From assembly GCA_026014665.1 (NCBI GenBank), contig JAOZHX010000028.1:1-64000 (forward strand): 64,000 nt of DNA, read 5' to 3'. Position 1 is the first letter of the stretch. Each line of letters starts with the position of its first letter. Both the position numbers and the translations under genes were made by a program. Below the pieces are notes generated by a model. The model ran no database searches. It saw nothing but the letters and a program-made list of their open reading frames with translations, and had not been told where the DNA came from. Below, piece by piece: positions 23,624-61,265 of this stretch. Source of the stretch: Candidatus Bathyarchaeota archaeon. Its GTDB lineage: Archaea; Thermoproteota; Bathyarchaeia; Bathyarchaeales; Bathycorpusculaceae.

Positions 23624-23953
23624 CTAAGTGACAAAACTGCTTTTCTTGCTAAGAATCAGCAGGATCGCTACTCCAATTATGCCTGTGTAGAGTATGGCTA
23701 TTGCCGTTCGTGACACGGACAGGCTGTGGGTGATATAATCGAAAGGAGACATCGTACCAGACGTTGCTCTGTCGCTTGCCTGAACGGTTTGAGATGGCTC
23801 AATCGGCAGATAAATGCTAACGCCCCCTTGGTTGATGCTAGGCAACTGCTGCGATGAAGAAGAAAGAGTCCCCGTTGCAAAACTAAAATATTGTTTAGTG
23901 GCAACTGCTACCATCAGAAGAGCCAATACAACTACAATGATACGTTTGGACAT
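23624..23953 (-). CDS. Small surface/membrane protein with two hydrophobic ends
   Basis: About 109 residues from ATG 23953; a longer frame from 24007 would run into the palindromic operators. The N-terminus is a signal or anchor helix (IIVVVLALLMVAVA), the middle 55 residues are Ser/Gln-rich and extracellular, and a second helix (TAIAILYTGIIGVAILLIL) ends the protein with a short basic tail. No family was recognised. Its upstream region contains two 16-bp palindromes also seen 35 kb away before another surface-protein gene, so it may be coregulated with that gene. Confidence 0.55.
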   Translation of the reverse strand: MSKRIIVVVLALLMVAVATKQYFSFATGTLSSSSQQLPSINQGGVSIYLPIEPSQTVQASDRATSGTMSPFDYITHSLSVSRTAIAILYTGIIGVAILLILSKKSSFVT

Positions 23954-24002
23954 TTTGCCACAGGCATATAGGGTGTTGTCTCGAATCCTAAAATGTTTTT
24001 TC

Positions 24003-24061
24003 GTCAATAAAGGTTGACTAAGTATTGGTTCTTAGTCAAGAAAGTTTGACTGTTTTAAATA
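24003..24061. promoter_or_regulatory. Tandem 16-bp palindromes plus TATA box (divergent promoter)
   Basis: Site 1 GTCAATAAAGGTTGAC (24003-24018) and site 2 GTCAAGAAAGTTTGAC (24035-24050) have GTCAA/TTGAC ends and are spaced 32 bp centre to centre. TTTTAAATA (24053-24061) follows site 2 toward the phosphatidyltransferase gene; a weaker TATA (about 23984-23993) faces the opposite gene. A near-identical pair lies at 59589-59637. Placement upstream of the TATA boxes suggests activator binding. Confidence 0.6.
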
Positions 24062-59588: not shown

Positions 59589-59652
59589 GTCAAGAAACCT
59601 TGACTAAAAAACCAGCGTTTAGTCCAGAAACCTTGACAAGAACGCTTTTAAC
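59589..59652 (+). promoter_or_regulatory. Second copy of the tandem 16-bp palindromes plus TATA box
   Basis: GTCAAGAAACCTTGAC (59589-59604) and GTCCAGAAACCTTGAC (59622-59637), 33 bp centre to centre, lie directly upstream of CTTTTAAC (59645-59652), a TATA-like element about 36 bases before ATG 59685. The arrangement equals the one at 24003-24061. Confidence 0.6.
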
Positions 59653-59684: not shown

Positions 59685-61265
59685 ATGAAGAAAGCATTCG
59701 CCCTACTGTTCACATTTGCCTTGGCGATAGCATCTTACTTTACACTGGCTACGCCTGTTAATGCAGGTTCCCGAACCCTCATCGTCCCAGACCATTATCC
59801 CACCATCGCCGCAGCCGTTGGAAACGCCACCGACGGCGACACAGTATTCGTTAGGAAGGGCAATTACGATGGACCCTTCAACGACACTTTGAGAATCGCA
59901 AAGTCTATTTCGCTCATCGGGGAAGACGCCGCCACAACCAAATTAACGTTGCATCCAGCATGGTTTTCAAGGTGGATATTTGCATCTGAGATTTCAGGAT
60001 ACGAAATGTCAATAGAGGTAAATGCGCCTGATGTGACAATCCAAGGGTTCACTCTTTTAACTGAGGGTTGGGGAATGGCAGTAAACGGCGATGGCGCCAG
60101 AATACAAGGAAACATAATAACCCTTGATGTAAGTATGAACGGTTGCCATCAAACTTGCGCATACAACCTTATAACCTACTGCAGCTACCCCAACGGCACC
60201 ATCAAAGCCTATGGCCGCGTAAACCTCAACGGCAACTTCTCCCAAGCCGCCGCAAATGTGCTAAATCAAGGAAGCATAACAACAGGCGGTCAAAACAACA
60301 CCCTGTTTGCCAACACAGGCGTCGGAACAATAGGCGTAGGGGGCATTAGTGGACCAGTTCTCGTCTACGGCAACACCTTGATGGGCGAAGTAAATCAAGA
60401 TTTAAACACTTGGTATGGTGGAGGCATACATATAGCTGGCTGCCAAATTATCGTAGCCAACAACACTGTCATTGGCGCCAAAGGAGGAGGAATCGGGGTT
60501 GCTTGGGGATTTGACAACATAATCTGTGGCAACACCGTTAAAGATTGCCCTTCAGAAGGTCTATACGAAATAGACAATGCTGGACATAATCTATTCTACA
60601 ACAACAATATCGAAAACTGCCTGTGGGGCGCCAAAATTGTTGGTTGGCATGCAACCGACCAAAAAACAACACTCTACCATAACAACTTTGTAAACAACAA
60701 AAAGCAAGTTAACACTGAACCCAATGAGTTGGTAAGTTCCTATTCTGGGCCTAACTTCACCAGAACCCTAAACCACGGCGGCTTCTTTGACAACGGCGCA
60801 GAAGGAAACTACTGGAGCGACTACACGGGCAATGACCAAGATGGCGACGGCAAAGGTGACACGCCATACATCATAGACGGTAGCCGCCAAGACCATTACC
60901 CACTTATGAAGCCCTTGGATATCAACAGCCAAGCCTTCCAACCGCCCATCTGGGCAAACCTCACGCTGCCTACAGAAGCCCAAACGCCAAAAATCAACTC
61001 ATACACCCCCATATTACTAGTAAACGCAAACCCGACTGCCACACCAGCAGACACCTCACCAAACCAAACACATAACCCAACACAAACTCAACAACCTGAC
61101 ACACAGAAAAACCAAGACCCAACCCAACCGCAGTTCACCCGCAACCTGCAATTTTCCCCCTCACCGTTCCTCATAGCCACTACAATAGTGGCCTTAGTTG
61201 CATTATGCGGAACCATCCTATCGCTACATCTTCAAAAAACAAGAAAGAACGAAGCGAAGAAATAA
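59685..61265 (+). CDS. Secreted right-handed beta-helix (NosD-like) membrane-anchored protein
   Basis: A 526-residue surface protein: signal peptide (1-27, cut near VNAGS), a NosD/pectate-lyase-like beta-helix (about 30-400: LIVPDHYPTIAAAVGNATDGDTV and repeated N-N-T/N-I ladder turns), then the GNYWSDYTGNDQDGDGKGDTPY block with a calcium-binding-like DxDxDGxGD, a Pro/Thr/Gln-rich linker (about 435-485) and a C-terminal membrane helix (about 495-517). Such proteins bind or modify polysaccharide. Its promoter carries the paired palindromes. Confidence 0.88.
   Translation: MKKAFALLFTFALAIASYFTLATPVNAGSRTLIVPDHYPTIAAAVGNATDGDTVFVRKGNYDGPFNDTLRIAKSISLIGEDAATTKLTLHPAWFSRWIFASEISGYEMSIEVNAPDVTIQGFTLLTEGWGMAVNGDGARIQGNIITLDVSMNGCHQTCAYNLITYCSYPNGTIKAYGRVNLNGNFSQAAANVLNQGSITTGGQNNTLFANTGVGTIGVGGISGPVLVYGNTLMGEVNQDLNTWYGGGIHIAGCQIIVANNTVIGAKGGGIGVAWGFDNIICGNTVKDCPSEGLYEIDNAGHNLFYNNNIENCLWGAKIVGWHATDQKTTLYHNNFVNNKKQVNTEPNELVSSYSGPNFTRTLNHGGFFDNGAEGNYWSDYTGNDQDGDGKGDTPYIIDGSRQDHYPLMKPLDINSQAFQPPIWANLTLPTEAQTPKINSYTPILLVNANPTATPADTSPNQTHNPTQTQQPDTQKNQDPTQPQFTRNLQFSPSPFLIATTIVALVALCGTILSLHLQKTRKNEAKK

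Follow-up and report, generated by a model that had tools for sequence, protein, structure and literature searches.

Palindrome Pairs in the Window

The window, meaning the whole 64,000-nucleotide stretch that was analysed (C1:1-64000 in our numbering of the host-genome contigs), carries two pairs of palindromes beginning at 24003 (site A) and 59589 (site B). Both were found where the preliminary description had placed them, with spacings of 32 bp (A1-A2) and 33 bp (B1-B2). At site A, palindrome A1 (GTCAATAAAGGTTGAC, 24003..24018, no strand assigned, PWM score 17.1) is proximal to a leftward TATA-like TTTTA on the minus strand (23989..23993, within GAAAAAACATTTTAGG), and palindrome A2 (GTCAAGAAAGTTTGAC, 24035..24050, no strand, score 26.9) is distal. 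At site B the distal palindrome is B1 (GTCAAGAAACCTTGAC, 59589..59604, no strand, score 29.4); B2 (GTCCAGAAACCTTGAC, 59622..59637, no strand) is proximal to a TATA-like TTTTA on the plus strand that starts 8 nt after it (59646..59650, within AAGAACGCTTTTAACG), and matches the composite promoter at 2 mismatches. GTCAAN6TTGAC is matched exactly by every one of the four palindromes but that at 59622, which has GTCCAG as one half-site.

Site B directs rightward, in the canonical layout, into the gene of a 526-aa exported NosD-like beta-helix surface protein (59685..61265, plus strand) whose start lies 47 nt from the array. The protein matches PF05048 (E 2.9e-14) and carries a hydrophobic segment and a basic tail at its C-terminus. 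Site A lies between divergent genes, and both had been taken as targets with a TATA box toward each. The leftward half of that claim stands: the box GAAAAAACATTTTA is 9 nt off palindrome A1 in canonical layout, and beyond it, starting 49 nt from the array, is the gene of a 109-aa exported small membrane protein (23624..23953, minus strand) with an N-terminal hydrophobic signal, a C-terminal hydrophobic segment and no Pfam match at E 0.01. The rightward box, TTTTAAATAA, starts merely 2-3 nt from the palindrome, unlike the boxes of other arrays, and the CDP-alcohol phosphatidyltransferase gene on that side (PF01066, 24157..24660, plus strand) is for this reason probably not a target. Site A thus probably serves the leftward 109-aa protein, and the phosphatidyltransferase not convincingly.

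With up to 1 mismatch, GTCAAN6TTGAC occurs 8 times in the window against 2.47 expected, a number reached in 0 of 100 shuffles. The looser pattern GTCAAGAAASYTTGAC with up to 3 mismatches gave a weaker excess (6 matches against 2.85 expected; 8 of 100 shuffles reach 6).

Distribution of the Pairs among Bathyarchaeia

The host genome (2,373,094 bases) contains 26 exact GTCAAN6TTGAC sites where base composition predicts ~2.6, and by our own reading of the match listings a partner site, in some cases degenerate, lies within ~35 bp of 22 of them. When 1 mismatch is allowed the signal is lost among chance matches (90 sites, and 86 with the reversed control); the longer pattern with 3 mismatches gave 99 sites against 66. 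The proposal of a regulon was borne out on a far larger scale than the two window sites, since by our count the host genome has 13 arrays: C1:24003, C1:59589, C1:111901, C2:222829, C10:99794, C12:20201, C12:221100, C13:76016, C13:237772, C19:7394, C20:21380, C20:45249 (three sites), and C26:21879. By our reading of their ORFs, the host-genome arrays examined sit between genes, as the regulon proposal had implied. A PadR gene lies near the C13:76016 array.

Among 81 genomes, counted with near-identical Bathyarchaeum genomes that are not independent of one another, the exact two-site pattern occurs in 20, host included, with 0 control matches. The composite of site and TATA stretch (GTCAAGAAANNTTGACAAAAACNCTTTTA, up to 3 mismatches) occurs in 30, again with 0 in the control, and the single site (GTCAAGAAANNTTGAC) in 32, with two control matches overall (G018, G053). 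A scan of a collection of species genomes returned 113 stretches; 78 of the 80 listed are archaeal by title (Bathyarchaeota, Bathyarchaeum, miscellaneous Crenarchaeota group, Crenarchaeota), one of the carriers of the operator being Bathyarchaeum tardum, and the two bacterial stretches both fall within local repeats. The early judgement that the pairs exceed chance has therefore held, and the paired palindromes are, on these sequence comparisons, genuine promoter-adjacent sites in many uncultured Bathyarchaeia.

Anatomy of the Arrays

The operator motif is GTCAAGAAANNTTGAC, and the last palindrome is followed by a TATA stretch, AAAAACNCTTTTA, that starts ~8 nt downstream. In a search that could detect starts at 6-13 nt only, the T-run of 72 of 111 boxes began 8 nt past the palindrome and that of 102 at 7-9 nt, which agrees with the activator-like position upstream of TATA noted at the outset. 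Of 83 TATA-side ORFs, 57 have their start codon 35-55 nt beyond the array.

A shared spacing of about three helical turns had been proposed from the window. Three turns fits the largest class, but the spacing is not a fixed value: 115 distinct pairs over 118 loci fall into classes near 24, 34 and 44 bp (20 pairs at 23-25 bp, 65 at 32-36 and 24 at 42-48, with 6 more at 57-70), and these main classes differ by one helical turn. For 62 pairs with the symmetric pattern, taken from the listed exact-pair matches after most near-duplicates of G069 and G075 had been removed by hand, the best period is 10.2 bp with a vector strength of 0.86, equalled by 0 of 2000 uniform sets. The palindrome centre is oriented (GAAA), and the two members of a pair are in tandem orientation in 47 of 53 pairs from relatives and 6 of 9 from the host genome; in the wider 118-locus pair set orientation is biased because the species-genome scan demanded equal centres. 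The layout is that of Ptr2/Lrp-type sites, with helically phased palindromes of which the nearest is a few bp from the BRE.

The Targets Are Mostly Exported Proteins

After repeats were dropped, 103 TATA-side stretches remained, of which 83 have an ORF of at least 45 aa within 130 nt, 16 have none and 4 run off the contig. By our own heuristic, and with repeated ORFs removed first, a signal-like hydrophobic N-terminus is found in 69 of these 83 ORFs, which include some wrong-side ORFs. Other ORFs at these loci show it in 176 of 713 cases (Fisher p 1e-25). At the C-terminus, 43 of 78 complete targets carry a hydrophobic segment and a basic tail, compared with 102 of 713 background ORFs. A PEF-type motif near the C-terminus occurs in 15 of 61 exported complete targets and in 17 of 647 background ORFs, an uneven comparison in that the targets were preselected for a signal and the background was not chosen for export. 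Among the NCBIfam matches of eight regulon proteins scanned there was no curated CTERM model and one LPXTG-anchor match, below cut-off (E 0.54).

In the host genome a plausible target stands at 12 of the 13 arrays. Eleven of these bear an N-terminal hydrophobic signal (nine by score and two, L044 and L047, by eye), and one (C13:237772) is a 58-aa zinc-finger-like protein; no target ORF was found at C12:20201. Target domains include NosD-like beta-helix and kelch, and a metallophosphatase lies behind the 58-aa gene in the host genome. Among the targets that are not exported are the 58-aa protein, the radical SAM proteins L138 and L166 and the glycosyltransferase-like L148, named by eye. The two radical SAM proteins are unexpected as non-surface targets; for L166 the best NCBIfam model is a heme b synthase, below cut-off.

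The 58-aa gene occurs in 16 of the 81 genomes, all of the window's genus. Conservation upstream of orthologs, which a true site should show, was found for this one target: all 16 orthologs retain two sites, 24-25 bp apart in 15 of them and 32 bp apart in the host genome, with a TATA-like stretch after them that is clearly altered in one (L314).

Some arrays with TATA-like boxes have no clear ORF behind them (L202:2700-3050, L205:900-1400, L037:4050-4180). Long inverted repeats follow instead, of the GGGCTGAG..GCTCTGG type in two genomes, and a search of five loci against Rfam gave 0 matches. These arrays may possibly serve small RNAs or decayed genes. A perfect single site at C32:77798 (L048:3999) has an XRE-type HTH gene on one side and a pyruvate phosphate dikinase-like gene on the other (both identified by eye), and its TATA-like box points back to the HTH gene.

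Membrane-Anchored Winged-Helix Proteins as Candidate Readers

A winged-helix or TetR-like regulator had been expected. The best lead is of the winged-helix kind, an ArsR-like protein anchored in the membrane, rather than a TetR-like one. This DUF7347 family (wHTH-TM), which came from the array neighbourhoods, has ~430 aa with an ArsR-like winged helix (PF24038, PF01022), one transmembrane segment and an outside domain. In the L086 protein the winged helix (PF24038/PF01022) is followed by a single hydrophobic segment from ~residue 102 and by ~300 residues without a good Pfam match; an ArnR-like architecture was not seen, as the protein has no HAMP match and no two C-terminal transmembrane segments. 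The outside domain recurs in proteins of array loci, two of which (L127, L167) are encoded directly behind an array. An alignment profile of the candidate gave one weak match in the PDB, to the secreted metalloprotease Mcp02 (E 0.049), on which we do not rely.

A site lies within 500 nt of 11 of 51 wHTH-TM gene copies (L202-L206, L217, L292, L293, L300, L307 and L311, with L205, L217 and L307 weak), a total of 51 rows that includes the partial or divergent L301, L308, L310 and L311. In 10 of the 11 the site is upstream and in one downstream. Compared with 1 of 20 genes of the TrmB control, this adjacency is not significant (p 0.16). Copies of wHTH-TM, some of them partial, occur in 28 of 30 composite-positive and 9 of 51 composite-negative genomes (p 6e-12). 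The control TrmB protein tracks the composite no less closely (present in 27 of 30 positive and in 5 of 51 negative genomes; Fisher p 3e-13), and co-occurrence therefore proves little for wHTH-TM.

The wHTH-TM tree was rooted at its midpoint and contains one long branch; 'clade A' in it denotes all rows outside a supported 29-row clade B. The copies in the nine composite-negative genomes belong to clade B. All 20 genomes that have a copy outside clade B are composite-positive; they comprise 18 of the 22 genomes with 5 or more strict sites and 2 of the remaining 59 (G040, G048). In G003 and G024 sites are present and all wHTH-TM copies are clade B; G005 (8 sites) and G012 (11 sites) have no wHTH-TM ortholog and weak wHTH matches only.

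Regions upstream of the genes were surveyed at the loci that could be anchored (40 of 51 wHTH-TM; 15 of 19 for wHTH-2, another membrane wHTH family that shares the Pfam domain), with distances counted from the wHTH-motif codon rather than the start codon. Of the 40 wHTH-TM genes, 6 have a GTC-type palindrome upstream, where 0.07 are expected, and 0 of 40 TrmB flanks have one. Such palindromes precede 8 of 15 wHTH-2 genes (0.03 expected), several of these upstream regions being near duplicates: seven have GTCCAGAAAACTGGAC, GTCCTGAAAACAGGAC or GTCTACAAAATTAGAC 134-157 nt before the motif codon, and one further gene is preceded by a GTCAA-type site. The variant palindromes before wHTH-2 genes are of the GTCCAG/GTCCTG/GTCTAC-AAA-GAC kind (L405, L415, L417, L419-L421, L423), and several of these regions have a second half-conserved stretch, for example GTCTACAAAAGAGGGATTAAATA, beside the TATA box.

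Other candidates were set aside. The 58-aa zinc-finger-like protein is confined to its 16 genomes, was not found in G060, G066, G069 and G075, and is a conserved target instead. As regulator of the surface regulon, wHTH-2 was rejected with its occurrence in just 10 of 81 genomes. TrmB (L037) has a nearby site at 1 of 20 genes, which is intragenic; it was retained as a control and weak rival. Clustering of recurrent neighbours (1067 ORFs, 118 loci) returned mainly surface proteins and one wHTH cluster. DUF7347 proteins are the best among the candidate readers, and we consider the chance that they read the sites to be about even.

Regulon Promoters on Virus Contigs

Of 57 IMG/VR stretches with a symmetric pair, the composite was matched by L349 and L393 only, with the same promoter on two contigs. 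The promoters are at L349:1533, L349:9998 and L393:727, all on the minus strand, and L349 is a contig of a head-tailed virus or provirus. On L349 they lie on the strand opposite a gene run that includes tape-measure and neck-like genes. One precedes an exported NosD-like protein (PF05048); the reading frame behind the other opens with a signal-like peptide but is broken by a stop, and a larger ORF lies in another frame. Two wHTH-2 proteins are encoded on L349 as well. On this evidence, viruses of Bathyarchaeia may put surface genes under the host switch.

Seven other virus contigs (L361, L375, L383, L385, L389, L397, L403) have GTCAA..TTGAC pairs exactly 29 bp apart. None matches the archaeal composite and three share one sequence; these pairs are perhaps phage repressor operators.

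Proposed Mechanism and Alternatives

The palindromes are very probably operators through which Bathyarchaeia control their cell-surface and exported proteins as one global regulon. What is observed at the level of sequence is a motif in helically phased arrays that stands at a fixed distance from BRE/TATA, is enriched before genes of exported proteins and is kept at the orthologs of one target. The position of the sites suggests that they probably act as activator sites, because sites upstream of the BRE match the layout described for archaeal activators. A dimeric winged-helix regulator would sit on each palindrome, adjacent dimers on the same helix face would cooperate, and the one beside the BRE would recruit TFB/TBP, so that the surface-protein genes would be switched on jointly. 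With less confidence, a DUF7347 reader with its HTH, one transmembrane segment and outside domain would sense the envelope, and may control its own genes. A wider scheme we offer tentatively, thinking it somewhat doubtful as a whole: the DUF7347 family might be split into specificities, each with its own GTC-NNN-AAA-type operator, with feedback through the outside domain and viruses using the host switch. GTCAAG would then mark the surface regulon and GTCCAG, GTCCTG or GTCTAC the sites before wHTH-2 genes, and the regulon might itself export surface proteins that bear the outside domain of the sensor, closing a possible feedback loop.

Chance, or repeats with no regulatory role such as mobile element ends or recombination sites, might be thought to account for the palindromes, the more so as single sites lie inside ORFs (L034, L036, L039, L042, L043) and one inside a TrmB gene (L337), and similar pairs occur on other virus contigs. 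The absence of control pairs from 81 genomes, the fixed TATA distance, the target bias and the 16 of 16 conserved orthologs refute such an origin for the paired sites, and as a general explanation it is exceedingly improbable; the single intragenic sites may be due to chance. Repressor operators, at which a regulator beside the BRE would block TFB/TBP until released by a signal, would be a regulatory alternative, and one that we consider unlikely. The proximal site does abut the BRE, where steric hindrance is possible, and ArsR-type proteins are often repressors. Yet the sites are upstream of the BRE, mostly 7-9 nt away, and overlap neither TATA nor the start, in the same layout that the cited texts describe for archaeal activators (PMC2995911; EarA, PMC5512572).

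A more serious alternative keeps the surface regulon and changes its reader, which would be a cytoplasmic protein of another family (Lrp/Ptr2-like or TrmB-like); the membrane wHTH genes would then just lie nearby or themselves belong to the regulon. We judge the chances of this alternative to fall just short of even. It would account for G005 and G012, which bear sites without wHTH-TM, and it accords with the occurrence of the TrmB family in 27 of 30 composite-positive genomes. Archaeal Lrp proteins are described as binding clustered 13-17-bp palindromes beside the BRE with centres two or three turns apart (PMC2995911, PMC6396743). For a TrmB reader in particular, the one intragenic site near its 20 genes and the lack of GTC-type palindromes in its 40 flanks argue against such a role.

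Comparison with Known Systems

In the PMC literature searched, no Bathyarchaeia regulon, promoter motif or transcriptional regulator of surface proteins was found described; the arrangement is of a known kind, and its operator, surface regulon and probable readers were not found in that literature. Bathyarchaeia are widespread across anoxic ecosystems, and Bathyarchaeum tardum, which is maintained as an enrichment, has an S-layer and an outer layer or sheath (PMC10477458). The operator is sharp enough for surface-protein genes to be listed by sequence alone, and the switch is testable because the cultured B. tardum carries it.

Several archaeal activators share parts of the arrangement. Ptr2/Lrp activators recruit basal factors from palindromes two or three helical turns apart, the closest of them at a constrained position within a few bp of the BRE (PMC2995911). 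The phased palindromes, with one close to the BRE, are alike; the motif is another, and natural Lrp sites are quite degenerate (PMC2995911) whereas the Bathyarchaeia sites are sharp. EarA of Methanococcus maripaludis activates surface-structure genes and has its repeated sites directly before their BRE (PMC5512572), and in having activator-type repeated sites just before the BRE of surface genes the two systems agree. They differ in that EarA uses four 6-bp sites at one operon, in Euryarchaeota (PMC5512572). Transmembrane transcription regulators are one-component DNA-binding proteins with a transmembrane segment that occur in archaea (PMC10269533), and the DUF7347 candidate resembles them in joining a DNA-binding domain to such a segment; by term counts, the main text of that paper mentions neither 'Bathyarch' nor 'ArsR'.

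ArnR and ArnR1 of Sulfolobus acidocaldarius are membrane-bound one-component activators, and binding of ArnR requires both copies of an inverted repeat, TCGAC-N5-GTCGA, that stand before BRE/TATA (PMC6396743). Both systems have paired inverted repeats before BRE/TATA, surface-structure targets and a membrane-bound HTH protein, which in Bathyarchaeia is a candidate. The operator sequence differs; ArnR has a putative HAMP, a sensory domain and two C-terminal transmembrane segments where the candidate has one central segment and an outside domain; and three pilus or archaellum promoters are named for ArnR in that account (PMC6396743), compared with 13 arrays in one genome here. Among these systems ArnR offers the closest working model for the arrays.
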